NCBI RefSeq assembly: GCF_009668025.1
Contig: NZ_WJXZ01000012.1
Span: 186,001 to 250,000, forward strand
DNA: 64,000 nucleotides
Source: Larkinella terrae
GTDB lineage: Bacteria; Bacteroidota; Bacteroidia; Cytophagales; Spirosomataceae
Direction: 5' to 3'
The notes under the pieces were generated by a model. The model was not told the origin of the DNA, ran no database searches, and saw nothing but the letters and a program-made list of their open reading frames with translations. Within the stretch, counting starts at the first letter, position 1, and each line of letters opens with the position of its first letter. The translations under genes were made by a program, and so were the position numbers. Below, piece after piece: positions 8,321 through 60,412 of the stretch.

Positions 8321-8424
8321 GTTTTTTAATTTACCATTTACAGTTTCAATCGTACTAAACTCATAATCAGAACGATACCTTAAATCCGCAAACCATATAC
8401 GCTAAACCGTAAACGATAAACTAA
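8321..8424. repeat. heptad-phased inverted repeat in a divergent promoter region
   Basis: The left arm has TTT at 8323, 8330, 8337 and 8344, exactly 7 bp apart. The right arm has AAAC at 8390, 8404, 8411 and 8418, again multiples of 7. The arms are imperfect reverse complements. The element lies between the divergent mlaE-type and ceramidase-domain genes, so it cannot be a terminator for either. Confidence 0.7.
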
Positions 8425-8486
8425 TACTATTAACTTGATTTGACGATACAAGGTTAGATTTTGTTAGTTTTGGTCAACGAAAAATC

Positions 8487-9836
8487 ATGAAATTCCTCCG
8501 TATCGCCTTCAAAATAGTGCTGGGACTGATCGCAGCCATTCTCCTTTTTCTGGCCGTTAGCCTGGCTCCGGTCGATGATCAGCCGTACCGAAAAACCGAC
8601 TATTACCACTACACGCGGCAGCAACTGCTCGACCTGGCTCCTCCGCCCAATCCAACGGCCGGGTTGCGGGCGGGTTGGGCCAAAGTCAATCTGACGCCCT
8701 CGTTCACGACGCCCACCGGCGGTTATGGCGCCCGAAAAGGCAAACACTGGACCACCGTCAGCGACTCCATTTACGTTCGAACTTTTGTTTTGAACAATGG
8801 TAACACCAAAGTGGCTGTTATTGCGCTCGATTTGCTGATTACGCCCCCCACGGTAACAGAACAACTCAAAAAAAGATTACCGGAAATCGGTTTTCGGTGG
8901 GAGAATGTGTTCACGGGCGCTATTCACAGCCACAACACGCTGGGCGGCTGGGCTCCGGGGCTGGTTGGCGAACTGTTTGCGGGCGATTTTGATCAGCGGG
9001 TTGTCGATCACATTACCGATGCGGTTTTGAAATCCATCGTACTGGCCGAGAAGCAGTTGGCACCGGTGGAAGTTGGTTTTTCCGAAATCGACGCGCCCGA
9101 TCTGGTTTATAACCGCATGAACGATGAAGGGAAAGTCGACGGTGAAATCCGGCTTCTGAAGCTCAAAAAAAATACCGGCGAATCGGCGCTGCTCTGCACG
9201 TTTGGGGGACACGCGACGATTTTCCGGGCCGCTGATTACCAGTATTTAAGTCGGGATTATCCGGGCGCACTGGTCGATCGGCTGGAAAAACAATCGGGCG
9301 GTTTTGTGGCTTTCATGGCCGGATCGGTCGGTAGCACCGGCTCGAAAACCAAACCCGGTAAAGATGAGTTTGCGACCATCCGAACGTATGCCGATACGCT
9401 GACGGCGCGGATTTCGCCCACCTTGCCCAAACTGAAAACCAAACCGGACAGTACGCTCGAACTGCTGACGTTGCCGCTGCAACTTCGCGAACCGCAGGCC
9501 CGCGTCACCGACGACTGGCGGGTGCGCGGCTGGTTCTTTCATACCGTTTACGGCGATTATCCTTCCGACCTGAAGGCGTTGCGCATTGGCCGGACGGTTT
9601 TGCTCGGAACGCCCTGCGATTTTTCGGGAGAACTGGTCGCCGAACTCCGGCAGCAGGCCGACCGGAAAGGGTTGAATCTCATGGTAACGAGTTTTAACGG
9701 CGGGTACGTCGGTTACATTACGCCCGACAAATACTACCACAAGGAAGCGTACGAAACGCTGACGATGAACTGGTTCGGGCCGGAAAACGGCGCGTATTTT
9801 GTGGAAATGATGAAAGGGTTGCTGGACCGGATGTAG
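8487..9836 (+). CDS. neutral/alkaline ceramidase-domain protein
   Basis: A 449-residue protein with one N-terminal hydrophobic segment (signal or anchor), then a neutral-ceramidase N-terminal type domain: RAGWAKVNLTPS, TPTGGYGAR, FTGAIHSHNTLGG (metal-binding histidines) and FGGHATIF. Full neutral ceramidases hydrolyse ceramide to sphingosine and fatty acid and are about 650 residues; this one is shorter and lacks their C-terminal immunoglobulin-like domain. The substrate may therefore be another N-acyl lipid. It is followed tail-to-tail by a NAPE-PLD-like hydrolase and is divergent from a lipid transporter. Confidence 0.82.
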   Translation: MKFLRIAFKIVLGLIAAILLFLAVSLAPVDDQPYRKTDYYHYTRQQLLDLAPPPNPTAGLRAGWAKVNLTPSFTTPTGGYGARKGKHWTTVSDSIYVRTFVLNNGNTKVAVIALDLLITPPTVTEQLKKRLPEIGFRWENVFTGAIHSHNTLGGWAPGLVGELFAGDFDQRVVDHITDAVLKSIVLAEKQLAPVEVGFSEIDAPDLVYNRMNDEGKVDGEIRLLKLKKNTGESALLCTFGGHATIFRAADYQYLSRDYPGALVDRLEKQSGGFVAFMAGSVGSTGSKTKPGKDEFATIRTYADTLTARISPTLPKLKTKPDSTLELLTLPLQLREPQARVTDDWRVRGWFFHTVYGDYPSDLKALRIGRTVLLGTPCDFSGELVAELRQQADRKGLNLMVTSFNGGYVGYITPDKYYHKEAYETLTMNWFGPENGAYFVEMMKGLLDRM

Positions 9837-9837
9837 G

Positions 9838-10971
9838 TTACGGCATGGTTTCCCACCAGTGCGCAGTCGGAATGTCCGATCCCAAAACCGTTACTTCGCC
9901 AATCCGGGGCGTGGCAATTTTGGTCCCCAGCGCCGCCGATTTTTTCATAAGCCGCTGGATTGGGTCGCGCCAGGTGTGCAGCGCCAGATTGAATTTTCCC
10001 CAGTGAATCGGAATCAGCAGATCGGCTTTCACATCCAGTTGAGCCTGAGCGGTTTGTTCGGGCATCATGTGAATATCGATCCAGTCTTCGTTGTAAGCGC
10101 CACACTCCAGCAGCGCAATATCGAACGGGCCGTATTTCTCGCCGACCATTTTCAGGCCGGGATAATAACCGGTATCTCCGCCGTAGTACACCCGCTTCTG
10201 CGTTCCCAGCAACGCCCACGAACACCACAGCGTGCCGTTTCGATTGGTCAATCCGCGACCGGAGAAATGCCGGGCGGGGGCGCAAACCAGCGTCAGATCG
10301 TCGAATTTCGCGGATTCGTGCCAGTCGAGTTCCGTAATCTGACTCGGCGCAATGCCCCACTTTTCCAGGTGAGCGCCAACGCCCAGCGGCACAAAAAACC
10401 GGTCGACTTTTCCTTTTAATCGCGTGAACGTTCCGTAATCCAGGTGATCATAATGGTCGTGCGACAGCACGACGGCGTCGACGTGCGGCAACTCATCCAC
10501 GTCCATGTAGTGATCGAACGGAAACCGCTTGGGGCCCGAGAACGACGCAAAGGACGCCCGTTCGCTGAAAACCGGGTCGGTCAGCAGGGTTTTCCCCTGA
10601 ATCCGGATCAGCAGCGTCGAATGCCCAAACCAACCGATGGCAACCTGCTCCGGTCCGCCGTTGCCCTCAAACAGTTTGACATCGAAGGGTACAGTTTTGA
10701 TGGTATCAGTCGGCTCGGCGCCCGGCACGCCGGTGAGCATTTTCCAGGTGGCCGACACCATTTTACCCGCCGACATATTGAGGCTCGTCGGCACCAGGTT
10801 CTGGAAGGTTCCGTCTTTAAAATTGGGTGAATTCTGAATGCGTTTCAGCCGCTCGCCGGTCGGTGTTTCGCCGAATTGCGGAGACAGGTTCACAAACGCA
10901 ACAGCGGCAATGACAAGGAGTACGATCAGCGAAACGATTACGAGGGCCATTCTTTTCAGGAATTTTTTCAT
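9838..10971 (-). CDS. MBL-fold hydrolase, NAPE-PLD-like
   Basis: A 377-residue protein starting at the ATG at 10971 (MKKFLKRM), which gives a clean N-terminal membrane segment; the longer frame to 11052 adds poor sequence. The metallo-beta-lactamase site HxHxDH is seen as SHDHYDHLD, with further ligands in APARHFSGRG, YGGDTGYYP and IPIHWGKF. The phrase GHSTLLIRIQGKTLLTDPVFS is typical of the group that includes N-acyl-phosphatidylethanolamine phospholipase D and UlaG. The exact substrate is unknown. Its stop is one base from that of the ceramidase-domain gene. Confidence 0.85.
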   Translation of the reverse strand: MKKFLKRMALVIVSLIVLLVIAAVAFVNLSPQFGETPTGERLKRIQNSPNFKDGTFQNLVPTSLNMSAGKMVSATWKMLTGVPGAEPTDTIKTVPFDVKLFEGNGGPEQVAIGWFGHSTLLIRIQGKTLLTDPVFSERASFASFSGPKRFPFDHYMDVDELPHVDAVVLSHDHYDHLDYGTFTRLKGKVDRFFVPLGVGAHLEKWGIAPSQITELDWHESAKFDDLTLVCAPARHFSGRGLTNRNGTLWCSWALLGTQKRVYYGGDTGYYPGLKMVGEKYGPFDIALLECGAYNEDWIDIHMMPEQTAQAQLDVKADLLIPIHWGKFNLALHTWRDPIQRLMKKSAALGTKIATPRIGEVTVLGSDIPTAHWWETMP

Positions 10972-11056
10972 TCGTGCAAACGGGGTGGGTTGTCGCCCGA
11001 TAAACGGGCTTCCCGTCTGCAACACGCCGGGCCCTTTGTGTAGTTCCACCAATGAC

Positions 11057-11587
11057 TTACTTCACCCGGTCAAACACGAACAGATCAGCGAAAACCCATT
11101 TACCGTCTTTCTGATTGCCGCGCTGAATGACCAGCTGGTTGTCCGACCGTTTTTCGTAAATAATTCGGATGGAACCGTCCGATTTTTCAAACAGTGCCTG
11201 GTTCTTTTTGGCTTCAATGAACGAATACCGGTCCGAGACGTCTTTTTCTTCCGACCCGATCAGGCCCGGTTTGAAATGTTTCACCAATACAATGGGGCCT
11301 TTTTCGGTTTGTTCAAAGATGAGCAGTTCGTACATCGTCACTTTACCGTCCTTCATCATGCGCATAAAACCGGCCAGGTTGTCGCCCTGCGGAGCGGCCC
11401 AGGCGGCATCGATCGGACCGCCGTTAAAGGTTCCTTTCCAGCGGCCTTCCATAAAACTAACATCGGTGAGCGAGCCTTTGGATTGGGCGTGACCCGCCAG
11501 GTTTACCAATAAATAGAGAGCAATAAGAATGGAAAAAGGAGCGGAATCGCGCAGCTTTCCGAAACGGAGAGTCTTAAATCGGTTCAT
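11057..11587 (-). CDS. secreted DUF6265-like protein
   Basis: A 176-residue protein from the ATG at 11587 (MNRFKTLRFG). It has an N-terminal hydrophobic segment ending in HAQS, probably a signal peptide, then FMEGRWKGTF and GDNLAGFMRMMKDGKV, which fit a small lipocalin-like beta-barrel family (DUF6265). Function unknown. It is the likely first gene of a pair with the MBL-fold hydrolase on the same strand, though 85 bp separate the stop from that start. Confidence 0.75.
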   Translation of the reverse strand: MNRFKTLRFGKLRDSAPFSILIALYLLVNLAGHAQSKGSLTDVSFMEGRWKGTFNGGPIDAAWAAPQGDNLAGFMRMMKDGKVTMYELLIFEQTEKGPIVLVKHFKPGLIGSEEKDVSDRYSFIEAKKNQALFEKSDGSIRIIYEKRSDNQLVIQRGNQKDGKWVFADLFVFDRVK

Positions 11588-11671
11588 GGGGAATAGGTTT
11601 ATGGATCGGCAAGATACTAAAATCCCGCTGACGAGCGGCAACGATTCGTCGTTTTGAAAAAGCCGGGAGAT

Positions 11672-12694
11672 TTACGAAATGGCATCCTGCTGTCGTACAA
11701 TTAATTCCGGTTCGAGGATCACTTTTTGCAAATCCGTCGGCGCAATAACCCCGTTGATCACATTAAGCAGAATTTCAGCTGCCATAAATCCGATTTGGTA
11801 GGGATGCTGTTCAACGGAAGCCAATGGGGGATGTTCCAGATACATATTCAGCGGCAGGTTGGCAAAACTGACAAAGGAAATATCCTGATTGACAACCAGC
11901 CCGTAACTGCGGCAAACCTGCATGGCATCCAGTGCCACGTAATCATTGAACGTCAGCACGGCGTCCGGCCGGGTTGCCGATGACAAAAGCTGATTCATTT
12001 TCAGGGCGGTTTCCTGCGTGGTGAGGTCGCTGCGCTTGATCAGGGCATTTTCAACGGGTAAACCTTCTTCCACCAAGGCCGTGATGTAACCCCGATACCG
12101 TTCCTCGCTGGCGATCAGCGCGTGCGGGCCGTTCAGCAGTGCGATGCGCCGGTGACCGCGCCGGGCCAGCCATTTGGTAGCTTCGTACGCGCCTTTTTCC
12201 ATGTTACACTCCACCTGATGCGCGGCAATATGGGGTGGAATGCGGTCGAAAAGCACCAGCGGAATCTGGCGATCCAATAGTTCCTGAATGTGGTGAATCT
12301 GCTGCGTTTCTTTGGCAACCGACAACAACACCCCATCGACCCGATTGGAAGCCAAAACCGTCAGAATCTGCTTTTCCCGATCAAACCGGTCGTGTGATTG
12401 ATACAGCGCCACCGTAACCTGGTGCTCGAACGCCAGTTCTTCCACGCCATTGATGACCTCCGAAAAAAAGTTCTCCCGGATTTCCGGCAACACCATGCCG
12501 ATCACGCCCGTTCGGCCCCGCTGGAGATTGCGGGCTGTCGTACTGGGCAGGTATTTCAACTGATTGGCCAGTGCATGAACGGCCTCGCGGGTATGGGAAC
12601 TGATGCGCGGATGGTTTTGTAAAGCCCTGGATACCGTAGATGGCGATACATTTAACTGACGGGCAATCTCTTTAATTGTAACAACATCTTTCAT
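11672..12694 (-). CDS. LacI family transcriptional regulator
   Basis: A 340-residue LacI/GalR-type regulator. Residues 4-25 form the helix-turn-helix (IKEIARQLNVSPSTVSRAL), followed by the hinge and a periplasmic-binding-protein-like sugar sensor domain (GVIGMVLPEI through VILEPELIVR). It is divergent from the GH109/SusCD locus, and the shared promoter holds two identical 10-bp palindromes of the kind LacI-family proteins bind. Autoregulation and control of the neighbouring glycan locus are therefore likely. LacI-type control is less common for Sus loci than hybrid two-component or sigma/anti-sigma control. Confidence 0.95.
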   Translation of the reverse strand: MKDVVTIKEIARQLNVSPSTVSRALQNHPRISSHTREAVHALANQLKYLPSTTARNLQRGRTGVIGMVLPEIRENFFSEVINGVEELAFEHQVTVALYQSHDRFDREKQILTVLASNRVDGVLLSVAKETQQIHHIQELLDRQIPLVLFDRIPPHIAAHQVECNMEKGAYEATKWLARRGHRRIALLNGPHALIASEERYRGYITALVEEGLPVENALIKRSDLTTQETALKMNQLLSSATRPDAVLTFNDYVALDAMQVCRSYGLVVNQDISFVSFANLPLNMYLEHPPLASVEQHPYQIGFMAAEILLNVINGVIAPTDLQKVILEPELIVRQQDAIS

Positions 12695-12763
12695 GTTGAT
12701 TCGCAGTCTGCCTTACAATTTACTCTTTTTATCCATTATCCCGAAATTTTCTTCGGTTTTGCA

Positions 12764-12795
12764 CAAACGTTTGCACACCTCAGAACAAACGTTTG
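12764..12795. promoter_or_regulatory. twin LacI-type operators
   Basis: The 10-bp perfect palindrome CAAACGTTTG occurs at 12764-12773 and 12786-12795, 22 bp centre to centre, that is two helical turns on the same DNA face. The central CG and overall form match LacI/GalR-family operators. They sit between the divergent regulator gene and the GH109 gene, a placement suited to control of both. Confidence 0.8.
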
Positions 12796-12923
12796 CGCAA
12801 ATCAAAACCGTCAGAATCAGGTTTATCGGTTCCCGATTTTGGTTGATCAATTGTTACCTTTTCTTCAATTTTCGTCATCAACTAACTCAAATTCCTTCAC
12901 AAAAGGCAACCCCATCTTAAGCC

Positions 12924-14300: not shown

Positions 14301-14325
14301 TTCGATTTACTCAACAACCCGACCG

Positions 14326-14366
14326 GGTAGTCCCTACCGTCTCAGAACCGTCTGGTTCTGAGACGG
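14326..14366. repeat. tandem hairpins between GH109 and susC genes
   Basis: A perfect 13-bp stem (14337-14349 with 14354-14366, loop GTCT) follows a smaller stem GGTAG-TCC-CTACC at 14326-14338 that shares two bases with it. No T-run follows, so it looks more like an mRNA-stabilising or processing hairpin, or a REP-like palindrome, than a terminator. It could set different levels for the GH109 and SusC messages. Confidence 0.65.
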
Positions 14367-14448
14367 CCACCCTTTCTTTGCCTTCACTTAATCCCCTAAG
14401 CCCTTTCCTTCTGCTTCTTAATCTCCACTTTATCAATAACCTAAAAAC

Positions 14449-26570: not shown

Positions 26571-26596
26571 AACCGCCATTCGCCCAAAACCATCAA

Positions 26597-26626
26597 AAAA
26601 GCCCGGTGCAGACGCCCCGGGCTTTT
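26597..26626. terminator. intrinsic terminator
   Basis: AAAAGCCCGG (26597-26606) pairs with CCGGGCTTTT (26617-26626), a 10-bp stem with T-run, 26 bp after the stop of the helical secreted protein. Confidence 0.88.
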
Positions 26627-26673
26627 CCAGTTCAACTCTAACCCTTAAACACACACAAACTGACTTTGATTGA

Positions 26674-26774
26674 ATTAATATCGAACACTGAATAGCGAAT
26701 AAAGAATAACGAAGTGGCCTCGCAGATTACACTATTTCGTTTTCGCTATTCAGTGTTCGATATTCGTTATTAAT
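26674..26774. repeat. heptad-phased inverted repeat between convergent genes
   Basis: The left arm carries GAA at 26683, 26690, 26697, 26704 and 26711, exactly every 7 bp. The right arm carries TTC-type cores about every 7 bp. Within it, 26680-26699 and 26742-26761 form a perfect 20-bp inverted repeat. It lies downstream of the strong terminator at 26597 and before the convergent barrel gene, so transcription stop alone does not explain it. Confidence 0.85.
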
Positions 26775-26780
26775 TTCTCT

Positions 26781-31772: not shown

Positions 31773-31916
31773 AAATGGTTCTGGTGGCTAAAATGGTTTG
31801 ATGGTTAAATGGTTGAAAATGGTTTGATGGTTAAAAATGGTTAGGCGGTTTTTAAACCATTTAACCATTTTTAGCCATCAGAGCCATTCAACCATCAAAA
31901 CCATTCAAATCATCTA
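31773..31916. repeat. irregular ATGGTT-word inverted repeat
   Basis: The left half holds at least seven copies of ATGGTT or TGGTT at 6-12 bp spacing; the right half holds the complementary AACCAT words at 8-10 bp. The halves can fold into a long imperfect hairpin. It fills the whole gap between two same-strand genes (yqeY-like and cvpA-like) and reaches the yqeY-like stop codon. It resembles the heptad class but is not strictly 7-phased. Confidence 0.75.
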
Positions 31917-32369
31917 AGCAGTTAGCAAATTCTTTACCAAAGCTGAAATGGCTTTTCCTTCGGCCTGTCCGGCCAGTTCTTTCGTCGCAACGCCCATCAC
32001 TTTGCCCAGATCCTGGGGTCCTTTGGCGCCAACCTTTTCAATAATAGCCTGCACGCGGGTTTTCAGCTCGTCTTCCGAAAGTTGTTTCGGCAGGTAATGT
32101 TCAATGATGGCAATTTCGGCCAGCTCGGCCTGCAAAAGGTCTTCGCGGCCCTGCGTACGGTAAATTTCCGCCGAATCCCGGCGCTGTTTGACGGCTTTGG
32201 TCAGCAGTTTCAGCTCGTCTTCGGGCTTGATGTCGCCCCCGGCCGATCCGTCTTTGGTTTCTTCCAGCAAAATCAGCGATTTAATCGCCCGCAAAGCCCG
32301 CAACCGATCCTGTTCCCGGGCTTTCATGGCCTCCTTGATATCGGTATCGATTTGTTGTTTCAGCGCCAT
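31914..32369 (-). CDS. GatB/YqeY domain protein
   Basis: A 151-residue cytoplasmic protein. The whole length fits the YqeY family: MKAREQDRLRALRAIKSLI, then YLPKQLSEDELKTRVQAII and GKVMGVATKELAGQAEGKAIS. The domain is shared with the C-terminus of the GatB subunit of the tRNA amidotransferase and with GlnRS and is thought to bind tRNA. A free-standing role is not established. Confidence 0.92.
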   Translation of the reverse strand: MALKQQIDTDIKEAMKAREQDRLRALRAIKSLILLEETKDGSAGGDIKPEDELKLLTKAVKQRRDSAEIYRTQGREDLLQAELAEIAIIEHYLPKQLSEDELKTRVQAIIEKVGAKGPQDLGKVMGVATKELAGQAEGKAISALVKNLLTA

Positions 32370-32380
32370 TATGTTAGCTA

Positions 32381-32495
32381 AGAATTAAGAGTGATGAGTT
32401 AAGAGTTGCTTAACCCGGAACCAATAAAAGTTTGGCAAAGTTACAAAAACGACTTGTTACAACTCATCACTCTTAACTCTTAATTCATAACTCAG
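32381..32495. repeat. heptad-phased inverted repeat in a divergent promoter region
   Basis: The left arm splits into AGAATTA, AGAGTGA, TGAGTTA and AGAGTTG. The right arm has CTC at 32463, 32470, 32477 and 32491 and TTC at 32484, exactly every 7 bp. Bases 32385-32400 and 32461-32476 form a perfect 16-bp inverted repeat. It lies between the divergent yqeY-like and pdxJ genes, ending 3 bp before the pdxJ start codon. Confidence 0.85.
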
Positions 32496-33212: not shown

Positions 33213-33224
33213 ACTAGAGTAAAG

Positions 33225-33296
33225 AAGTGAGACAAGAGAAGTGAGACAGAAGTCTTATTCCCTGTCTCACCTCTCTTGTCTTACCTCTCTTGTCCA
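33225..33296. repeat. heptad-phased inverted repeat between pdxJ and ridA-like genes
   Basis: The left arm splits into AAGTGAG, ACAAGAG, AAGTGAG and ACAGAAG; the right arm into CTGTCTC, ACCTCTC, TTGTCTT, ACCTCTC and TTGTCCA. Bases 33231-33249 pair with 33262-33280 with one mismatch in 19. It ends 4 bp before the ridA-like start. Confidence 0.85.
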
Positions 33297-33687: not shown

Positions 33688-33786
33688 CAGCGGTTGAAAA
33701 CCCTGTCAGCGGTGGTAGTGTCATCTATTCCAATTTCACCGCTGACAGGGTTTTCAACCGTATCGACGGCCCGGCGCTGTCAGGGT
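33681..33786. repeat. nested four-part palindrome
   Basis: A perfect 24-bp inverted repeat (33691-33714 with 33737-33760) is enclosed by a second one of 12 bp (33681-33692 with 33775-33786). Both use the same word, CCCTGNCAG/CTGNCAGGG. It starts inside the last codons of the ridA-like gene and ends at the stop of the convergent oxidoreductase gene. The word period is about 18 bp, not 7. Confidence 0.85.
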
Positions 33787-36013: not shown

Positions 36014-36556
36014 ATGCAGGCTGAACAAACACTTCTCCGACAACTACGGAACGCCGACCCGACTGCTTTTCGCCGGGTTTACGACCGGTATGTTCAACGG
36101 ATTTATTATTTTACAGTAAGCTTTCTTAAATCGCCGGAAGCCGCCCAGCAAATCGTACGCGATGTGTTTACCACTCTTTGGGAGCGCCGGAGCACGCTTG
36201 ACGAAGATATTCCCCTGAATGGCTATTTATTTACGATGACCTATGGATTGGTGCTGTCGGCTTTTCGCGAGCGGCACAGCCAGTGTCAGCCGCAGGAAAT
36301 TCTGCAACGCTTAACCACGCAATCGGGCACCGACACCGAGGAACAGGTGCTGTATCAGGAACTGGAACTGCTGTATCAACAGGCGGTTGCCCAACTTCCC
36401 CCGCGCCGTCGCGAAATCTACCTGCTCAGCCGCCACGAGGGCTATACTTCCCAGCAGATTGCGGATCGCATGAACCTGTCAACCCGAACCATCGAAGAGC
36501 ACCTGGCCCAATCCTACGATACCTTAGGCACTTATTTTCAACGACATACGTATTAA
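36014..36556 (+). CDS. ECF-type RNA polymerase sigma factor
   Basis: A 180-residue sigma-70 family protein of the Bacteroidota FecI-like group. Region 2 spans about residues 14-80 (FRRVYDRYVQRIYYF, VFTTLWERR) and region 4 about 120-170 (LPPRRREIYLLSRHEGYTS, then IADRMNLSTRTIEEHL). It should direct transcription of a small regulon when released by its partner. The FecR-like gene follows 48 bp downstream. There is no SusC/TonB receptor gene next to the pair, which is unusual. Confidence 0.94.
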   Translation: MQAEQTLLRQLRNADPTAFRRVYDRYVQRIYYFTVSFLKSPEAAQQIVRDVFTTLWERRSTLDEDIPLNGYLFTMTYGLVLSAFRERHSQCQPQEILQRLTTQSGTDTEEQVLYQELELLYQQAVAQLPPRRREIYLLSRHEGYTSQQIADRMNLSTRTIEEHLAQSYDTLGTYFQRHTY

Positions 36557-36601
36557 TTGAGCGAATGAGCGGTTTCCGTCCAATCACTCAATCACTCAAT
36601 T
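36555..36601. repeat. short inverted repeat between sigma and FecR genes
   Basis: AATTGAGCGAATGAG (36555-36569) and CTCAATCACTCAATT (36587-36601) are reverse complements with two mismatches. The arms use GAG/CTC words 7-8 bp apart and resemble the heptad class. The element overlaps the last two bases of the sigma stop codon and ends 3 bp before the FecR start. Confidence 0.5.
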
Positions 36602-36604
36602 AGA

Positions 36605-39335: not shown

Positions 39336-39425
39336 AATGATAAATGTAGAATATTGAATGTAAAAGTAGCTAGGCGCTTCTGAAACCCTCTTACATTCAG
39401 CATTTTACATTTATCATTTAAAATT
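39336..39425. repeat. heptad-phased inverted repeat between tandem MFS genes
   Basis: The left arm has AATG at 39336, 39343 and 39357 with AATA at 39350. The right arm has CATT at 39394, 39401, 39408 and 39415 and AATT at 39422, all exactly 7 bp apart. 39336-39363 pairs with 39391-39418 with a few mismatches. Both flanking genes run leftward, so the element is intergenic within a same-strand pair. Confidence 0.88.
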
Positions 39426-41726: not shown

Positions 41727-43682
41727 TCAAACCAGCCACGTCAGCCATTGCATCCAGTTTTGCACCCAGAACATCAGCTTAGCCGCATACTTAGCCGCCG
41801 GACTGCGGGGCGGGTGAACCGCAAAGCTGTTGTTGTTCAGGTTGATATCGATGTATATTTTTTGTTGCGGATCAATCCGGGCCCATTCGGCGCGGGTCTG
41901 CTGCGTGACGGTAAAGGTGTGGGAGCGAGCCTTGCCATCCCAGTGCAGAAGCTGTTCGTTTCCATCCCCGAAATGCACCAGCACCTCGACCGGCAGTTGG
42001 GCGTCGCCCTTGCGGTAAACCGTCACCGCCGACTGATAGCCACTCCCCTGCCGGACGCTGGTAACCGAATGTAGTTCATAATCACAAACCTGGCTACCGT
42101 ACAAAACCTGATCGAAAAACCAGTTCATGTTCGAGCCAAACCGGTTGCCGTGTCGTTTGGTAACCACCTCATTGACAATGGCAATGAAATTTTTGGCGTT
42201 GGGATGTTTGAATTTCCAGCGTTCAAAATACGTCCGCATGATTTCGTCCATCACCGACCGACCCACCAAGCCGTCGAGCGTCCGCATCCAGGTGGCCGGT
42301 TTGAAATAAACCAGTTCGCCGTAGTAGTCATCAGGTAATTGCCAGACGTTGTTGAAAGAGGGCGCAATCGCCGGAAAATCGAGGTGAACATAGAAATTAC
42401 GGGACAATTCGAGGTTGCCGACCCGGTAGCCAAGCAGTTCCACGATCGACGATTTCGGGCCGTAGGTTTCGTCCATGATCCGGCCTTCGTAATACTGGTT
42501 GAACCCCTCATCCATCCAGGCTTCTTCAAACTCATTGGTCGCCAGCAACTGCATAAAGTACTGATGGCCAAACTCGTGAATCGTTACCTGCTCCGGCAAC
42601 CGAAGGGTCGGGGGCATTCCCCAGCTCGTTCCGGCGGTGATGAACGTCGGGTATTCCATGCCCGCTGCGCCCATCGCCCAAACGGGCGGATCGACGATGG
42701 TCAGCGTTGTAAACGGATACCGGCCCAGGTGTTTGTCAAAGTAAGCCAAAGCGGTTTTGGCGGCTTCGATGTGTCGTTTGGCCTGACTCGCGTGTTCGGG
42801 CTGCATCAGTGCGCGGATGGCAACGTGTCGCCAGCGATCGTCGAAAATCTCGAAATCCGGGGACGCCGTACAGGCAAAATCAACCACATCTTCGGCGTGC
42901 CAGCGGAGTGTTTTGGTACCGTTCGGATTCTGTCGCTCACTTTTCAGCAAACCGGTTGCCCCGATGCGGAAATTTTTGGGCGTCGTGATGGCCACATCAT
43001 AAACCCCATAATCCGCGTAAAACTCCGAATGGGCGTGAAACTGATGGCAATTCCATTGACCGCTGGTGGCATACCGGGTTCCGGCCGGTTCGTAGACCCC
43101 AATTTTGGGAAACCATTGCGCCACCAGAAAAAAGTCGCGGCTGTAGCCCGTACGGGCAAAAATCTGGGGAAGTTTGGCTTGAAAGGTAATGTCGAGCGTA
43201 ATGCTCTGACCGGGTGCCAGGGGCTGGCTGAGCGGTACGCGAATGACGGTTCGGTCGTCGGAATTGGCATCGTCGGGCTGAAAAAACCGGTATTTGCCCG
43301 TCAGATTCTCCGCTGCGCCCGATGGTCCGGCGCGGGTTTTCAGCGACAGAATATCAATCTGCCCGTACGATTCCGGATTATCCCGATCGATAAAGTCGCC
43401 CCGCAACTGCCCGCCCGACTCGCGCATGAATGTCGACTGATCGTTTCGAAAGGCGTTCAGGTACAAATGAAACTGTAACTCCCGAATGACGTCGTTCGAG
43501 GAATTTTTCCAAACCAGCGTCTCCTTCCCCTCCAGCCGCTTCGTTTCCGTATTCAACTGAACCTCAATCTGATAATTCGCAATTCGCGGACTGAACGGCA
43601 CCGACTGCGCCGACGCAATCCGGACGAAAAGAATCAGGAGCAGAGGGCAAAGGGCAGGGGGCAGAGGGTGTGGGGTCACCAT
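41727..43682 (-). CDS. M1 family metallopeptidase (aminopeptidase N-like)
   Basis: A 651-residue secreted zinc peptidase. The gluzincin site is HEFGH with the third ligand in EEAWMDEGFNQYYEG. The exopeptidase motif is AMGAAGMEYP, close to the canonical GAMEN region but altered. A beta-rich N-terminal domain precedes it (YQIEVQLNTETKRLEGKETL). I use the ATG at 43682, because the open frame upstream to 44129 is antisense-like sequence overlapping the DUF2911 gene. The signal peptide VTPHPLPPALCPLLLILF is encoded largely by an arm of a heptad repeat. Confidence 0.88.
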   Translation of the reverse strand: MVTPHPLPPALCPLLLILFVRIASAQSVPFSPRIANYQIEVQLNTETKRLEGKETLVWKNSSNDVIRELQFHLYLNAFRNDQSTFMRESGGQLRGDFIDRDNPESYGQIDILSLKTRAGPSGAAENLTGKYRFFQPDDANSDDRTVIRVPLSQPLAPGQSITLDITFQAKLPQIFARTGYSRDFFLVAQWFPKIGVYEPAGTRYATSGQWNCHQFHAHSEFYADYGVYDVAITTPKNFRIGATGLLKSERQNPNGTKTLRWHAEDVVDFACTASPDFEIFDDRWRHVAIRALMQPEHASQAKRHIEAAKTALAYFDKHLGRYPFTTLTIVDPPVWAMGAAGMEYPTFITAGTSWGMPPTLRLPEQVTIHEFGHQYFMQLLATNEFEEAWMDEGFNQYYEGRIMDETYGPKSSIVELLGYRVGNLELSRNFYVHLDFPAIAPSFNNVWQLPDDYYGELVYFKPATWMRTLDGLVGRSVMDEIMRTYFERWKFKHPNAKNFIAIVNEVVTKRHGNRFGSNMNWFFDQVLYGSQVCDYELHSVTSVRQGSGYQSAVTVYRKGDAQLPVEVLVHFGDGNEQLLHWDGKARSHTFTVTQQTRAEWARIDPQQKIYIDINLNNNSFAVHPPRSPAAKYAAKLMFWVQNWMQWLTWLV

Positions 43683-43725
43683 TTTACCCTCTGCCCCTTG
43701 CCCCATGCCCCACACCCTCTGCAAA
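43640..43725. repeat. heptad-phased inverted repeat overlapping a signal-peptide coding region
   Basis: The left arm splits into GCAGAGG, GCAAAGG, GCAGGGG, GCAGAGG and GTGTGGG from 43640; the right arm into CTGCCCC, TTGCCCC, ATGCCCC, ACACCCT and CTGCAAA from 43691. 43661-43675 and 43708-43722 form a perfect 15-bp inverted repeat. The left arm lies inside the M1 peptidase gene (codons 2-14) and the loop contains its start codon. Confidence 0.9.
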
Positions 43726-52358: not shown

Positions 52359-52374
52359 GGTACCTTAAATTATA

Positions 52375-52561
52375 TACACCTCTTTTCTGGTCGCGTAGCG
52401 ACTCAATGTTGATAGCATAAATCCCAGAGCATATCCTTTTGGTCGCGTAGCGATCGAACAAAAGGCGCGTTGTTCGATCGCTACGCGACCAAAGGCAGTG
52501 GAACTGGTTTGGTTTATTTTCTACAAACATTCGGTCGCTATGCGACCAGAAAATAGGTGTA
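52375..52561. repeat. large four-copy palindrome
   Basis: The word GGTCGCNTAGCGA occurs four times. The inner pair 52438-52460 and 52471-52493 is a perfect 23-bp inverted repeat. The outer pair 52375-52402 and 52534-52561 matches 26 of 28. The whole block can fold into one long nested hairpin or cruciform. It lies between same-strand genes, after the C25 peptidase and before the SMR gene, and no transposase is near. Confidence 0.88.
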
Positions 52562-52618
52562 TGTACTTTAGATGACTTAACAGGCTACACATCGAATTTA
52601 GAACTGCTTCACCAAAAC

Positions 52619-52948
52619 ATGAAATACCTGTTTATCGCCATCGCGATTGTTGCGGAAGTCATTGCCACCTCCGCCCTGAACGCTTCCCAGCAATTCAGCA
52701 AATGGCTGCCCAGCGTCATTACGGTGGTGGGTTATTTAACCTCTTTCTACTTTCTGAGTCTGGCGCTGCGCACCATGCCCATTGGCGTAGCGTACGCCAT
52801 CTGGTCGGGGGTGGGCATTGTGTTAACCGCGCTGGCGGGCATTTTTCTGTTCAAACAGATTCCCGACGTTCCGGCGCTCATCGGCATGGCGCTGATCATC
52901 GCCGGGGTGCTGGTGATGAACCTGCTTTCCAAGTCGAGTGTCCACTAA
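52619..52948 (+). CDS. SMR family small multidrug efflux protein
   Basis: A 109-residue inner-membrane protein with four membrane helices. The essential Glu14 is in VAEVIATSAL, and WSGVGIVLTALAGIFLF matches the EmrE/QacE dimer-interface helix. It exports cationic toxicants in exchange for protons; some relatives export guanidinium. No guanidine riboswitch is seen upstream, where a large palindrome lies instead. Confidence 0.93.
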   Translation: MKYLFIAIAIVAEVIATSALNASQQFSKWLPSVITVVGYLTSFYFLSLALRTMPIGVAYAIWSGVGIVLTALAGIFLFKQIPDVPALIGMALIIAGVLVMNLLSKSSVH

Positions 52949-53091
52949 GCGGTAGTTCTGGCGTACCAAACGCCGTACCACAGGCTGAAACGAACCCGAT
53001 AAGTGCGGCAATTGGATTTAACCACTATTTTTTAGTAAATCTATCGTTCTGACTGCTTTAGGAAAGTAAAGCGTCTAAGAAACCCTGCCTT

Positions 53092-55223: not shown

Positions 55224-55255
55224 AAAACCGCTAATTACTGTAACTGAAAACCGGC

Positions 55256-55840
55256 ATGAGCACCCGAGAAAGTATTCTGGCTGCAGTTTTGAAAAACCAG
55301 CCACCCGCCAGCCCATTGCCCGACATTTCGGCGTTTCAGGGTACCGATCAGGATATCGTTGCCAGATACCGGGCGGTTTTTACCGGCATCGGCGGAAGCG
55401 TTTTTGAAGTGGAAAATTTTGCGGAAATCAACGACCGGATTCGGGAGAATTTTGACGCGACGAAACGCATCCTAACCACCCTGCCCGGCCTGGCCGGTTA
55501 TTTTGAGCAACTGTCTACGACGGCTGATCCGCGCACGTTCGACGATGTGGAACTGGCCGTGATCGAAGCGCAGCTGGCGGTGGCAGAAAACGGGGCGGTT
55601 TGGCTCCCGGAACAACGCATGGGGCAGCGGATTATCCCATATATCTGCCAGCATCTGGCCGTGGTGGTCCCGGTCGCAACCATCGTTCCAACGCTCCACG
55701 AAGCCTACGCGCAGATTGGCGAGGGCGACTACGGTTTCGGCGCATTCATCGGTGGCCCCTCCAAAACCGCCGACATCGAACAGGCCCTCGTCATGGGCGC
55801 CCACGGACCCATTACCATGACGGTTTTTATTTTAAAATGA
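55256..55840 (+). CDS. lutC: lactate utilisation protein LutC
   Basis: A 194-residue protein of the LUD family. TREXXLAAVLKNQP-like opening, then AVIEAQLAVAENGAVWL and a closing GPSKTADIEQALVMGAHGP, all characteristic of LutC/YkgG. It completes the lutABC operon, 32 bp after lutB. A long palindromic terminator follows. Confidence 0.94.
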   Translation: MSTRESILAAVLKNQPPASPLPDISAFQGTDQDIVARYRAVFTGIGGSVFEVENFAEINDRIRENFDATKRILTTLPGLAGYFEQLSTTADPRTFDDVELAVIEAQLAVAENGAVWLPEQRMGQRIIPYICQHLAVVVPVATIVPTLHEAYAQIGEGDYGFGAFIGGPSKTADIEQALVMGAHGPITMTVFILK

Positions 55841-55870
55841 TGAGTCTAAAATAAGATTACACCTATCATC

Positions 55871-55934
55871 GCCCCCCACCCCCAAAAGGGGGCTTAAGTA
55901 CACCGATGCAAGCCCCCTTTAGGGGGTGGGGGGC
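55871..55934. terminator. terminator-like palindrome after lutC
   Basis: GCCCCCCACCCCC... (55871-55895) pairs with 55910-55934 to give a very GC-rich stem of about 25 bp with one or two mismatches and a 14-nt loop. It resembles the palindrome at 23677 in design and lies 30 bp after lutC. Confidence 0.7.
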
Positions 55935-55966
55935 AGAAAGGAAAAATCTAAATTTTAGACATCTCT

Positions 55967-56052
55967 CAATGTTAAATGTACAATGAGGAATGCAAAAGTA
56001 GTCGCCAAATCAGCCTTTTACGGTCTACATTGATCATTTATCATTTCTATTC
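55967..56052. repeat. heptad-phased inverted repeat before the malate synthase gene
   Basis: The left arm has AATG at 55968, 55975, 55982 and 55989 and AAGT at 55996. The right arm has CATT at 56028, 56035 and 56042. All spacings are exactly 7 bp. The arms are imperfect reverse complements. The right arm ends about 27 bp before the start codon at 56072. Confidence 0.85.
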
Positions 56053-56071
56053 TATAGCTAACCTCCTGAAT

Positions 56072-57967
56072 ATGAGCATTATCATTCGTGACAACCTGAA
56101 AGAAACGTACCGGGATGTGTATACCGCCGAAGCGCTTTCGGCGCTTTCGGCGCTGGCTCACTTCAACAAGCGGATTAAAGCGGTGATGGCAACCCGGCTG
56201 AAACGACGGACGGATCGCCGGCAGCAGCACCAGCGGATTACGTTTCTCGATCCGGAAAGTGTCATTCCCGGAACCAGCATCAGGGTTCAGGATGCGCGCG
56301 ACGGCAAGTTTGAGGGCTCACCGATTCCGGCGGATCTGCAACGGCAGTGGATTCAGGGAACGGGACCGGCGGCCAAACCCAACGCACCGGTCGAAAACAG
56401 CATTCGGAACGTGGCCTACGCCCTGCTGTCGGGCGCCGACGGCTGGATGTTCGATGGCGAAGACGCGCTCGGTCAGATCACAACCATGTCGCTCGATAAC
56501 CAGCGCAATTTGAAACTCGCCATTCACAAAGACCCGGTTTTTCTGAAAGCCGCCGAACAGGTTGCGGCCGAAATGAACCGCTGGGCGGTTTCGTTTCTTG
56601 GCCGGGAAATCATTACGGATTGGGGAAACCAGTTGAATTTCACCACCAAAATCTTCCGGGCGCGCGGGCTGCACCTCGACGACCGGCACATCCGGGATGC
56701 GGAAGGAACGGCCCTGGCCGCGTCGATTGTCGACGCGACGCTTTACGTGGTCAATAATTATCAGGCACTGCAACAGGCCGGGTCGTCCGTCGTCCTGTAC
56801 CTGCCCAAAATCCAAACCGCCGAAGAAGCCGCCGTCTGGAACGAGCTGCTCACGGCGCTGGAAAACCACCTGGGGCTCGAAACCGGCACCATCAAAGTCT
56901 ACGTGCTCGTTGAACAGCTCGAAGCGACGCACCAGTTGATGGAAATCCGGGCGGTTTTGGGCAAGCATTTCGTGGGCTACAACACCGGTCGCTGGGACTA
57001 CATCAACAGCGTTTCGGACGCGATGGCGTGGGATAAAACCTTCATCAACCCGAACATCGAAGCCATTACGATGACGTACGGCTACATGCGGAACTACGAA
57101 GACCGGGTTCGCCGGGCGGTCAACACCCCGGATCTTCACGGTAATTTTGCGTTGTGGCAGGGCGGAATGGAACCGAACATTCCGGTGGGTTCGGAAGCAG
57201 GCGTTTCGGCCAGCATGCAGAAGGCGGTGGCGGGTGCCGGTCGCGAGCAACGCGAAGGCGCCAGCGGCAAGTGGGTGGCGCACTGGAAAATGGTGCACAT
57301 TGTCCGACCGGTTTGGGCGGAAATCGGGGCCGCTAACCAGTTGGGCCGGGCGTTTCCGCGACTGACGTACACGCAGGCCGATGCCGACGGACTAATTCTG
57401 ATTGAACCGGCTCCGACCGACATTCGGGGCGCGCGCAACCTGCTGAGTGTGGCCCTCCAATACGGCAATGCGTTCGGGCAGGGCATGCAGGCAGCCGCTT
57501 TGAAACCGGCGGATTTCTTCGGAAACGACGATATTCTGTACTTGATGGAAGACATGGCGACCGGCGAAATTCGGCTGAGTATTCTCTGGGAATGGCTGCA
57601 CAAGGGCGCAACGCTGACCGAAGATGACCCGGAAACCGGCACCAAAGCCGGAGCGGTTTTTTCGGAAGAACTGTACAGGAAACTGCTGGACGAAGAATAC
57701 GAAAAGCTGTTGAAAGCCGCCAGTAAGGATGTTTACGAAAACTCGAAAACCACGACGCTGCCCATTGCCCTGGAAATCGCGAATGTGTATATTCTGAGCG
57801 AAGTAAAACCGCCCTGGTTTATCGACCTGCTGAACATCAACCTCAACAACCTGGATTTAGCCGTGGCGAAAAACCGCATCGGATTGTATATGAACACGCT
57901 CAAAACCGAAGGAAAGCGGATTACCGAAAACCTGGATTTTGCCCCGACGAATCCCGTTGCCAGCTAA
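56072..57967 (+). CDS. malate synthase, divergent
   Basis: A 631-residue protein from the ATG at 56072; the longer frame to 55976 would translate the repeat arm. It has the malate synthase barrel: DGWMFDGEDALGQ (metal-site region), VLVEQLEATHQLMEI, GYNTGRWDYINS and, near the C-terminus, LMEDMATGEIRLSILWEW, which matches the MEDAATAEISR segment with the catalytic Asp. It should condense glyoxylate with acetyl-CoA to malate. It is longer than MalS A (about 530) and diverges in the C-terminal half. No isocitrate lyase gene is in the window. It follows lutABC. Confidence 0.82.
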   Translation: MSIIIRDNLKETYRDVYTAEALSALSALAHFNKRIKAVMATRLKRRTDRRQQHQRITFLDPESVIPGTSIRVQDARDGKFEGSPIPADLQRQWIQGTGPAAKPNAPVENSIRNVAYALLSGADGWMFDGEDALGQITTMSLDNQRNLKLAIHKDPVFLKAAEQVAAEMNRWAVSFLGREIITDWGNQLNFTTKIFRARGLHLDDRHIRDAEGTALAASIVDATLYVVNNYQALQQAGSSVVLYLPKIQTAEEAAVWNELLTALENHLGLETGTIKVYVLVEQLEATHQLMEIRAVLGKHFVGYNTGRWDYINSVSDAMAWDKTFINPNIEAITMTYGYMRNYEDRVRRAVNTPDLHGNFALWQGGMEPNIPVGSEAGVSASMQKAVAGAGREQREGASGKWVAHWKMVHIVRPVWAEIGAANQLGRAFPRLTYTQADADGLILIEPAPTDIRGARNLLSVALQYGNAFGQGMQAAALKPADFFGNDDILYLMEDMATGEIRLSILWEWLHKGATLTEDDPETGTKAGAVFSEELYRKLLDEEYEKLLKAASKDVYENSKTTTLPIALEIANVYILSEVKPPWFIDLLNINLNNLDLAVAKNRIGLYMNTLKTEGKRITENLDFAPTNPVAS

Positions 57968-58028
57968 TTCACGACAATTAGCTGGAAATAAGCCATTTCC
58001 AGAAAACTACGCAGACTACATTTCCGTC

Positions 58029-58072
58029 AGGTGACGTTACGGCTGTCAATGGTCAGTAGCGTCACCTTTTTC
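58029..58072 (+). terminator. intrinsic terminator after malate synthase
   Basis: AGGTGACG (58029-58036) pairs with CGTCACCT (58060-58067) and is followed by TTTTCT. The loop is long, 23 nt. It lies 61 bp after the malate synthase stop. Confidence 0.65.
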
Positions 58073-58147
58073 TCCGATTGACAAGTCCTTTTAGTAGGCC
58101 ACCAGCTTCCCTTTCGCCCGCATTTCCGCAAAATAAAATCGTTAGCA

Positions 58148-58166
58148 GTAACTATTGAATAGTTAC
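58148..58166. promoter_or_regulatory. 19-nt perfect palindrome, possible operator
   Basis: GTAACTATT-G-AATAGTTAC is a perfect inverted repeat with 9-bp arms. It lies about 260 bp upstream of the kinase gene that opens the phospho-signalling cluster. The form suits a dimeric regulator, but nothing identifies which. Confidence 0.4.
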
Positions 58167-58428
58167 GAATTAGCCGGGAAATTGAGCCGCTTAATTCATT
58201 CCATTTTTACGGCCCGGCCGCGCGTTGTTGCAAGCCCGAATTCTTTGCCTTGAAAGGAAATTCCCTGGGCTTTTCTTTCTGTATCTAGTTGATAATCAGG
58301 AATTAGGAAAAAGAATTTTGAGCAATTTTTCAAAATCCGCTGACATTCGCCCGGAAAGATTGATGAACTCAATGACAACGAATTAGCCTGCTCTTTCGCA
58401 GCCTTCATAACCTTTACGTCGGAGTTTT

Positions 58429-60285
58429 ATGCAAACGCAACTTCTTACCTACACATTAAGCCAGAAATTAGGGGAAGGCGGAATGGCCACCGTCTGGTAC
58501 GCCGAGAACGCGCTCGGAAAACGCTTCGCGATCAAAGTGCTGAAGCCGGGGATGGAACTCAAGGAAAAGCTGGCCGAGCGGTTCCGGCTGGAGGCCAAAA
58601 TGATGGTAAGTCTGGAACATCCGCACATCCGTCAGGTGATTGATTATCACGAGGATGCGGGTACGATGGCGATCATTATGGAGTATCTGGAGGGCGAAGA
58701 CCTGGGGCGGTATCTGATCGAACGCGGGCCGGTTTCCGAAGCGCAGGCCCTCAAATGGTTCAACGACATTCTGGATGCGGTGGCGTATGTCCACCAGAAA
58801 AACTACATCCACCGCGACATTAAGCCCTCCAACCTCTTCCTGACCCGCAACGGCCAAATCAAGGTGATGGATTTCGGGATTGCCAAGATCGTCAACGCCA
58901 ATCTGGAACTGACCGAAACGCATACCAACATCGGTTCGCCCCAGTACATGAGCCCGGAGCAGATTACCACGCCCCGATCCATCGATTACCGCACCGATAT
59001 TTACTCGCTGGGCGTCACCCTCTACGCACTTTTAACGGGCAAAAAACCGTATGACGATTCGTACGGATCGGCGTATACCGTTCAGGCCGAGATTGTTAAA
59101 AAACCGCTGCCGTTCATTCCGGGCGTTTCGCAGCGCGTCAACGCGGCCATTCAGAAAGCCACCAGCAAGAATCCCGGCGAGCGGTTTCAGAGTTGTGCGG
59201 CTTTTAAAGAAGCACTGGCCGAACCGCTACCGGTTTTTCCGGGAAATGATGACGACAAAACGCTGATCCGGAACCCGAACCGGGTGAACCTGCCCGACGA
59301 TGTCCGGCCCCGGGAAGTGGTGAAACCGGAGGAGGTGAAAAACGAAATTCCTGACCCGAAAAAACCGGACGATGGTCCGAAGAAACAGACCGAAAAGAAA
59401 TCCCACACGCTCCGGAATGTGCTCATCGGTTTTGTGGCGCTGCTGGTGCTGGGCGGGGGGTTGTTCGCAGCCTGGACGTATTTTGTGAAAGGCGACATCA
59501 CGAAAGGTGTTGAACTGGCCAACAAGGGCGAATACACCGAAGCGTTTTTTCTGCTTTATAAACACCGGAATTCGCCTTTCATGACGCCCGAAGCGATTCA
59601 CCACCTGGGGTACATGTACAACACCGGTACGGGAACGCAGCGGGATTACAGCGAAGCCCTGCGCTGGTACTGGAAAGCCGCCGATCAGGGTTACCTCCTG
59701 AGTCTGAGTAACATCGGGGCGATGTATCAGTTCGGCATGGGCGTGGCCGTCGACCTGCCGAAAGCCCGGGAGTATTACGAAAAAGCCGCAGCGGGCGGTA
59801 TTGCCAAAGCCAAATACAATCTGGGCGAGTTATATTTTAACGGCACCGGCGTAAACCGAAACTATTACGAAGCGATCCGTTATTACCGGGAAGGTGCCGA
59901 AGGCGGTGACGCCGGGGCTCAGTTTAAGCTGGGGCTGTCGTACCAGTACGCCTACGGCGTCAGCAAGGATTATTCGCAGGCCGAATACTGGTTCCGGAAA
60001 GCCGCCAGCCAGAATTACGCGGATGCGCAGAACTCGCTCGGGGTGCTTTATTACGGTGGTTACATCGGCGGCAACGGCGTCGATTATGCAACCGCCCGTT
60101 TCTGGTACCAGAAAGCCGCTGAGCAGAACAACGTCTATTCGCTGTATAACCTGGGTTATCTGCACGATTATGGACAGGGCGTCACCCAGAACTGGACGAT
60201 TGCCGTTGACTATTACAAAAAAGCCGCCCGGCTGGGTTACGCCGATGCCCAGAAGCGATTAAACCAGTTCTCGATACGCTGGTAA
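58429..60285 (+). CDS. membrane Ser/Thr protein kinase with Sel1 repeats
   Basis: A 618-residue eukaryotic-type kinase. The Gly-rich loop is LGEGGMATVWYA (14-25), the catalytic Lys36 is in FAIKVL, the HRD loop HRDIKPSN starts at residue 128, and VMDFGIAKI is the DFG motif. The kinase domain ends near 265. A Lys/Asp/Pro-rich linker leads to one membrane segment (about 328-350) and then at least six Sel1 repeats (AALRWYWKAADQGY-like units) outside the cytoplasm, probably for sensing or partner binding. It opens a cluster with FHA readers and a PP2C phosphatase. Confidence 0.93.
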   Translation: MQTQLLTYTLSQKLGEGGMATVWYAENALGKRFAIKVLKPGMELKEKLAERFRLEAKMMVSLEHPHIRQVIDYHEDAGTMAIIMEYLEGEDLGRYLIERGPVSEAQALKWFNDILDAVAYVHQKNYIHRDIKPSNLFLTRNGQIKVMDFGIAKIVNANLELTETHTNIGSPQYMSPEQITTPRSIDYRTDIYSLGVTLYALLTGKKPYDDSYGSAYTVQAEIVKKPLPFIPGVSQRVNAAIQKATSKNPGERFQSCAAFKEALAEPLPVFPGNDDDKTLIRNPNRVNLPDDVRPREVVKPEEVKNEIPDPKKPDDGPKKQTEKKSHTLRNVLIGFVALLVLGGGLFAAWTYFVKGDITKGVELANKGEYTEAFFLLYKHRNSPFMTPEAIHHLGYMYNTGTGTQRDYSEALRWYWKAADQGYLLSLSNIGAMYQFGMGVAVDLPKAREYYEKAAAGGIAKAKYNLGELYFNGTGVNRNYYEAIRYYREGAEGGDAGAQFKLGLSYQYAYGVSKDYSQAEYWFRKAASQNYADAQNSLGVLYYGGYIGGNGVDYATARFWYQKAAEQNNVYSLYNLGYLHDYGQGVTQNWTIAVDYYKKAARLGYADAQKRLNQFSIRW

Positions 60286-60290
60286 AAAAT

Positions 60291-60412
60291 AGTTTAAGGT
60301 TTGTGGTTTTACGTTTATAGTTTAAGTGACAACGTATTGATAAACAGGGTAATCAATGCAACTATAAACCGCAAACCATAAACACTAAACGGTTAAACCT
60401 CAAACCCTAAAC
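60291..60412. repeat. heptad-phased inverted repeat between kinase and FHA genes
   Basis: The left arm is five exact heptads of form NGTTTNN from 60291 to 60325. The right arm has AAAC at 60366, 60373, 60380, 60387, 60395, 60402 and 60409, spaced 7 bp with one slip to 8. This is the clearest example of the class in the window. It lies between two same-strand genes of one cluster. Confidence 0.92.

Follow-up and report, generated by a model that had tools for sequence, protein, structure and literature searches.

The 64-kb stretch of DNA analysed here (hereafter the window; positions 186001-250000 of contig C4 in the 7.85-Mb genome of Larkinella terrae, G000) contains a series of intergenic hairpins whose arms are arrays of short, degenerate words recurring every 7 or 8 bases. 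We find that arrays of the same kind enclose genes of the S23/4HB protein family (PF05635, "23S rRNA-intervening sequence", a four-helix bundle or 4HB), the gene-bearing form being a word array, a single S23/PF05635 open reading frame (ORF) and the same array inverted. Hairpins and gene-bearing elements share words and polarity; the step clusters on the protein tree, arms stay matched, short loops flip, and elements turn over between relatives. Together these data suggest that the hairpins are probably gene-less derivatives of S23/4HB elements and that a pentameric, Avd-like protein probably binds the word array; both the binding and the mobility of the elements are what we infer from these comparisons.

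The original prediction, made from the sequence alone, was that eight gaps of the window hold hairpins of tandem heptamers. Period-7 words are present in all eight, and the cores it cited recur exactly (GAA at 26683, 26690, 26697, 26704 and 26711; AATG at 55968, 55975, 55982 and 55989). The hairpins are good in six of these gaps and worn or imperfect at 8321 and 55967 (score 11.0 each). The excess of lag-7 periodicity over shuffled DNA is real: in 464 kb of the L. terrae genome, comprising 263 intergenic regions delimited with our own ORF caller, 25 lag-7 segments scored at least 12, compared with 0.3 in dinucleotide shuffles (10 rounds, lags 6-8 only). Segment counts at other lags in the same 464 kb were 22 at lag 14, 0-1 at lags 4-6, 0-5 at lags 8-13 and 2 at lag 15, and inverted repeats scoring at least 13 were found in 108 of 550 intergenic pieces as against 1 of 550 after shuffling. 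The plain mean autocorrelation over all intergenic DNA, proposed as the measure of this effect, has no lag-7 peak (0.269), and the signal is thus carried by a minority of gaps. Nor is the phasing as strict as had been claimed: 7 is the commonest step, and there are step-8 members too (31787-31919 and 36554-36602).

A protein connection had been raised as a possibility, and the PF05635 family proves to be tied to such arrays. S23 genes are known beside words of this type, which served as the lead for a PF05635 search. The L. terrae genome has four PF05635 matches, all between arrays and with four different words; L219 carries a short array on its right side, and at L218 the step is 8 and there are in-frame stops. 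We assembled 94 loci, consisting of 30 from Bacteroidota (best-scoring matches and so a non-random draw), 30 obtained by searching 14 genomes, 30 belonging to Larkinella or to two neighbouring genera, and the four above; dropping eight on short stretches left 86 usable for a flank test with an array threshold of at least 9. Both flanks passed at lag 7 in 57 of the 86 and at lag 8 in 14, with 0-3 at the other lags from 5 to 13. Taking lags 7 and 8 together, arrays lie on both flanks of 71/86 loci and on at least one flank of 85/86, many of these loci being orthologues, so that independent cases number fewer than 86. In windows placed 700 bp outward, both sides passed at neither lag 7 nor lag 8 (0-1 at other lags), and either side passed in 9 and 4 cases, respectively. 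The left flank matched the inverted right flank at a score of at least 13 in 61/86 loci, compared with 4 of the control windows.

The association extends beyond the Bacteroidota. The 14 genomes were picked for holding a GAATA-type 23-mer, and 12 of them have PF05635 (L113 and L167 lack it); L144 and L106 represent groups near or within Bacteroidota, the L144 genome repeating places of one genome of the Bacteroidota set. The count for other phyla covers 19 of the 22 usable loci from this set, of which 17 have arrays on both flanks and all 19 on either. As controls, GIY-YIG loci from 14 genomes that were classed as small (at least one, L382, being a long gene for which the wrong frame was taken) had arrays on both flanks in 0/20 and on one flank in 5, and among all genes of the 464 kb both flanks carried arrays in 8/335. 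A search for PF05635 itself found it in 232 of the 296 Bacteroidota genomes covered but in 0 of 14 well-known control genomes. In samples of 100 kb, three genomes without PF05635 gave 1, 0 and 2 lag-7 segments (shuffled 0.2, 0.4 and 1.0), and four genomes with 11-15 copies gave 4, 2, 5 and 8 (shuffled 1.2, 0.6, 1.4 and 3.0). That heptad density tracks PF05635 copy number over the eight genomes sampled is suggestive only.

The same words occur in the gene-less hairpins. Each hairpin of the window had been thought to have a private core, with no dispersed repeat; instead, the cores recur as dispersed word families. A search of the genome with the 26674 hairpin returned 29 matches, counted as 20 other places plus itself, and of six copies present in full five begin AATATCGAA and are arranged head to head, the sixth being inside out. 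Further step-7 families are AATGNNA, AATGAAC, GACCATT, GTTTACG, AACTCTT, GAGACAA and GGGCAGA; step-8 families are GAATGAGT and ATGGTTNA, and there are also words with a step of about 10. Public genomes hold at least 114 stretches with the 23-base GAATA-type pattern, for which base composition predicts about one chance occurrence, the matches listed including Bacteroidota, contigs labelled Deltaproteobacteria, Gemmatimonadetes, Planctomycetota, Acidobacteria and Anaerolineales, and others, with the proviso that metagenome contigs can be mislabelled.

We compared the words of 89 gene-less periodic hairpins from six Larkinella genomes, related species whose hairpins are non-independent cases, with those of 27 in-genus S23/4HB loci and about 52 foreign ones (59 minus seven of the two neighbouring genera). 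A cosine of at least 0.5 to an in-genus array was reached by 69/89 and to a foreign array by 9/89, the in-genus value being the higher in 73. Six of the originally listed places are strong enough for this test, and five have an in-genus counterpart (0.50-0.71); cores that had been taken as unshared thus mostly have a counterpart beside an in-genus S23/4HB gene. Polarity is shared as well: the 5' arm has more G than C in 70/75 arrays upstream of S23/4HB genes and in 70/74 gene-less arms, compared with 48/138 non-periodic hairpins. Words and polarity are therefore common to both forms, and the gene-less copies share ends with the gene-bearing element as a miniature inverted-repeat transposable element (MITE) does with its parent. 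The median number of words is 5.1 in 156 arrays beside S23/4HB genes and 4.6 in 180 gene-less arms, figures which agree with a pentamer but depend on the detection threshold. Stretches of the L. terrae genome chosen for BLAST matches (G000d-l) are excluded from the word-cosine, gap-orientation and 3'-distance counts and from the 74 gene-less arms, and are included in the 246 hairpins surveyed, the 180 arms and the 138 non-periodic hairpins.

Comparison of orthologous gaps in five relatives (G002, G003, G005, G006 and G008) indicates that the hairpin is kept at most sites while its words, and sometimes its family, change, so that these are not conserved ordinary terminators. The gap at 26571-26780 has GAATA words in G000, G002 and G003, AAATGAT in G006, AATGAAC in G008 and a shortened form in G005. 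In the cydA-cydB gap, where the upstream gene is Cyt_bd_oxida_I, G002, G003 and G005 carry an S23/4HB element whose word is ATGATGAACG; gene-less period-8 hairpins are present in G000 and G006, and a remnant in G008. Elsewhere, elements are nested within remnants of others (G003 gaps at 75926 and 95541). Loops also flip: 17 comparisons between G003 and G006 gave 5 inverted, 6 in the same orientation and 6 unclear, the corresponding figures being 1/4/5 for G003-G002 and 1/2/8 for G006-G002. Consistent with the proposal of a shared architecture in which arms stay matched as words change, the median match between arms is 0.93 and that between adjacent units 0.68, with arms the better in 73/74. 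At paired arm positions in close relatives, 774 are the same, 28 two-sided changes still pair and 11 two-sided changes do not.

The step of an array follows its protein. Words and proteins were compared for 79 proteins (L218, L264, L273, L288, L292, L301 and L309 had no usable frame and were excluded; the frame was re-picked for L226, L267 and L269), and 60 of these, excluding L269 and near copies (similarity of at least 0.78), were placed on a tree. On this quick tree, in which 25 of 57 inner branches have support below 80, steps 7 and 8 require 7 changes compared with a shuffled mean of 11.9, and 0 of 500 shuffles were as low. The protein may therefore set the step of the array. L222 and L238, related proteins at different sites, keep the step and differ in words. 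A strict one-word-one-protein code is not supported, since among similar proteins many share the step but differ in their words.

At L216 the word is GACCATT, and at L217 AATGAAC. A structural model of the L216 protein (predicted local distance difference test score, pLDDT, 94.4) has its best fold matches in the S23 entries 2gsc and 2rld, each with five chains, and a Xanthomonas S23 protein is described as a homopentamer in the accessible part of PMC4990558. The next matches are to Avd of diversity-generating retroelements (DGRs), with template-modelling (TM) scores of 0.78-0.80 to 4dwl and 8ube at weak E values (0.06-0.08); the Avd structures matched include the DGR ribonucleoprotein. By sequence there is no match to Avd, the resemblance being by fold only, and a likeness of PF05635 to Avd is noted in the passages available of PMC10053308. 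RVT_1 had no match in 16 of 26 PF05635-bearing genomes, L. terrae included (PF00078, 0 matches), although a divergent reverse transcriptase could be missed. We consider a general need for a host reverse transcriptase acting in trans unlikely, given these 16 of 26 genomes. The pentameric ring and arrays of about five words make one word per subunit a natural guess.

These data allow us to propose how such elements might work. A pentameric 4HB ring would bind the array, perhaps with one word per subunit, and would thereby recognise its own element and, in trans, the gene-less relatives. Spread and maintenance might involve a single strand that folds so that one arm serves as template for the other; this would keep the arms complementary while the words drift. 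On this view the protein would determine the step and the lineage the word.

Several observations weigh against this reading. Between close relatives one-sided arm changes dominate (95, from species pairs that overlap). By eye, orthologous gaps showed replacement and nesting, and none was found to be a clean empty site bearing a target duplication. S23/4HB elements often occupy the same site in different genera (53 pairs with the same context), and no ORF flip was seen within them in 44 pairs comparable on both sides, themselves non-independent, whereas the short hairpin loops do flip; the gene-bearing elements are therefore not very mobile. The counts at PF05635 loci overstate independence, since many of the loci are orthologues, and G012, with three PF05635 genes, has 0 lag-7 segments in 100 kb (shuffled 0.2). 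Words track the protein weakly (Mantel r 0.19, p 0.001). Some words also want for a partner: no in-genus S23/4HB array with GGGCAGA was found (best cosine 0.06), none of the step-10 words has a clear partner in the genus, and GAGACAAG and AACTC are common in L. terrae, whose four PF05635 matches carry other words.

The strongest rival is a role at the level of RNA, which fits the PF05635 link equally well. Here the hairpin would act once transcribed, either as a site where RNase III cuts operon mRNA or by stabilising 3' ends, and the 4HB protein would bind the stem of the RNA or its words. Hairpins close to stop codons would persist because they are nearly harmless at that position, and copying would be by ordinary recombination. 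Position in gaps is in keeping with this. Periodic hairpins lie in 54 co-directional, 19 convergent and 6 divergent gaps, compared with 321, 65 and 115 among all gaps of at least 60 bp, so that divergent gaps, listed in the original prediction alongside the other two kinds, are atypical (6/79 versus 115/501). Moreover, 75/92 distances from periodic hairpins to a gene 3' end are within 20 bp, whereas placing them at random within the same gaps predicts 54%. An Avd-like fold occurs in the DGR ribonucleoprotein, and the intervening sequence (IVS) that carries S23 genes in 23S rRNA is excised by RNase III, according to the sections accessible of PMC4990558. However, 91/150 of the distances for non-periodic hairpins are also within 20 bp of 3' ends, so this position is not specific, and an RNA-level role by itself leaves the spread of words between loci, the nesting and the matching of arms unexplained. 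We consider it unlikely, if still worth keeping in mind.

A second rival holds that general replication slippage and template switching produce the hairpins, S23/4HB genes merely preferring such places. Heptamer repeats with no known protein are described in bacteria, as far as the available portions of PMC4679880 and PMC4692102 go, and a loop flip is seen in a non-periodic hairpin too (G003 versus G006, at the orthologue of the window gap at 55841). Against this, no clear excess at lag 7 is seen in the three genomes that lack PF05635, albeit in a small sample, arrays on both flanks are the rule at S23/4HB genes and rare at other genes, and the step follows the protein clade; such hitch-hiking is accordingly quite improbable. 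That the hairpins are bidirectional transcription terminators selected for structure only can hardly be right: they do lie near stop codons, with 19/79 in convergent gaps, but in the gap at 26571-26780 and its orthologues the hairpin is accompanied by a separate, G+C-rich stem resembling a terminator, and step, shared words, polarity and the S23/4HB link would be left unexplained.

Read as gene-less derivatives of S23/4HB elements, the hairpins have parallels in several known systems. In the pairs formed by RAYT genes and repetitive extragenic palindromes (REPs), and by insertion sequences (ISs) and MITEs, one gene lies between palindromes and is accompanied by a cloud of gene-less palindromes with its ends. 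The present elements likewise have a gene-bearing form and a gene-less cloud sharing ends; they differ from RAYT/REP in having PF05635 rather than a Y1 transposase and in ends that share step and polarity, not one sequence. A RAYT origin of the hairpins was rejected: period-7/8 arrays lie beside none of the three RAYT (PF01797) genes of L. terrae, which have other, REP-like palindromes instead. DGRs are a parallel in fold, that of S23/4HB proteins being the fold of Avd; but a DGR comprises a reverse transcriptase with template and variable repeats, whereas the present element has no reverse transcriptase.

The IVS is a further parallel. In the text available of PMC4990558, an S23-bearing IVS ends in a stem of 28 bp and has heptamers in tandem next to its ORF, these heptamers being reported in one species with a copy number that varies between strains. 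The gene-bearing relatives described here are similarly an S23/PF05635 ORF within a terminal inverted repeat. The IVS, however, interrupts the 23S rRNA gene at helix 25 or 45, whereas the present elements lie between protein genes, with several word families per genome and many gene-less copies.

Tandem 7-bp units in intergenic DNA are a feature shared with the short tandemly repeated repetitive (STRR) sequences of cyanobacteria, which are intergenic heptamer repeats. Available extracts describe TAACTGA heptamers of Beggiatoaceae, intergenic 7-bp units found also in five Bacteroidetes (PMC4679880), and heptamers of Xanthomonas and Nostoc (PMC4692102). Such known repeats are mostly exact and direct, whereas the present ones are degenerate, inverted arrays, some of step 8; and no protein family is linked to the known ones in the descriptions at hand, whereas the present arrays are tied to PF05635. 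In the open-licence literature of PubMed Central we found no report of a link between PF05635 and arrays beyond the heptamers in one IVS.

A wider reading, which we put forward tentatively and as a possibility rather than an expectation, is that these are selfish palindromes of several phyla, defined by step and polarity. In each, a pentameric S23/4HB ring would read, and perhaps lay down, its own 7- or 8-letter word, one per subunit, with the clade fixing the step and the word drifting in both arms; the rRNA IVS would be a branch that landed in rRNA, and the heptad hairpins the gene-less cloud. S23 proteins have no known function and the origin of the IVS is unclear, going by the portion of PMC4990558 at hand. 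If true, the proposal would for the first time assign a function to the S23 family. The rule tying PF05635 to arrays would explain a class of intergenic hairpins in Larkinella and make PF05635 a candidate for the protein associated with heptamer repeats of other bacteria. It bears directly on which nucleic acid the protein binds, on whether it reads step and word, and on whether it moves gene-less copies.

The hairpins of the window, all of which lie between protein-coding ORFs with none inside, are listed in the table; the window has no Rfam match at gathering scores.

Table. Periodic hairpins and remnants of the window (window coordinates; cosine values refer to the best in-genus S23/4HB array).
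Position	Strand	Feature and word	Arms or arrays	Hairpin score	Best array (cosine)	Remarks
8323..8424	.	worn hairpin, TAAACNN/AAACCGT	left array 8323-8346, right array 8383-8423	11.0		array scores 8.0 and 12.4; GTTTACG family assigned by eye
26677..26775	.	hairpin, GAATANY	arms 26677-26706, 26736-26764; arrays extend to 26713 and 26775, respectively	23.5	L219 (0.54)	28/30 columns paired
31787..31919	.	hairpin, ATGGTT, step about 8, variable spacing		22.5	L303 (0.70)	absent from the original prediction
32379..32494	.	hairpin around divergent gap, AACTCTT	arms 32379-32400, 32461-32482	19.5	L306 (0.71)	loop of 60 bases conserved
33223..33288	.	hairpin, GAGACAAGAG	arms 33223-33249, 33262-33288	19.5	L282 (0.60)
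36554..36602	.	period-8 remnant, GAATGAGC/ATTGAGTG		11.0		absent from the original prediction; complete hairpins in this gap in G002, G003, G006 and G008
39336..39425	.	hairpin, AATGNNA ending GTAAAAG	arms 39336-39366, 39388-39418	21.0	L309 (0.56)
43638..43717	.	hairpin, GGGCAGA	arms 43645-43669, 43686-43710	17.5		see text
55966..56056	.	worn hairpin, AATGNNA	arms 55968-55998, 56015-56045	11.0		23/31 columns paired; too weak for the cosine test, AATG family by eye
60291..60413	.	hairpin, GTTTANN / TAAACNN	arms 60291-60324, 60379-60413	18.5	L293 (0.50)

The loop of the 39336 hairpin (39367-39387) has a box resembling the TAnnTTT promoter consensus and is inverted in G006 by eye, a pair left unscored by the script. 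The word GGCTGACGC and its inverse appear in loops of hairpins of different families (G003 75926, G000c 153381-153503, G002/G008 91865), and short G+C-rich inserts such as GGGGCCGCCCGTGCGG occur within A+T-rich arrays (G008/G002 at the orthologues of window 32370 and of the G003 gap at 91865; G006 at 75926).

The window also contains palindromes of other kinds. At 55844-55960 lies a non-periodic palindrome of the CCCCAAAAGGGGGCTT type, which has many copies in L. terrae and its relatives and whose loop is inverted between G003 and G006 at an orthologous gap. A palindrome CGGTTGAAAACCCTGTCAGCGGTG occupies 33691-33760 and the orthologous gaps, in tandem in G003 and nearly gone in G002 and G008. 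Palindromes with GGTCGCGTAGCGACC at 52366-52570 look like the REP family of the RAYT gene in L099, since similar palindromes flank that gene.

Among the S23/4HB loci, L228, L229, L232, L234, L236 and L247 share a common gene neighbourhood in different genomes, each with an element of differing words, at what is apparently an old site. At G311:C1:2945594-2947066, five GIY-YIG reading frames follow one another with a repeat spacing of 315 bases.

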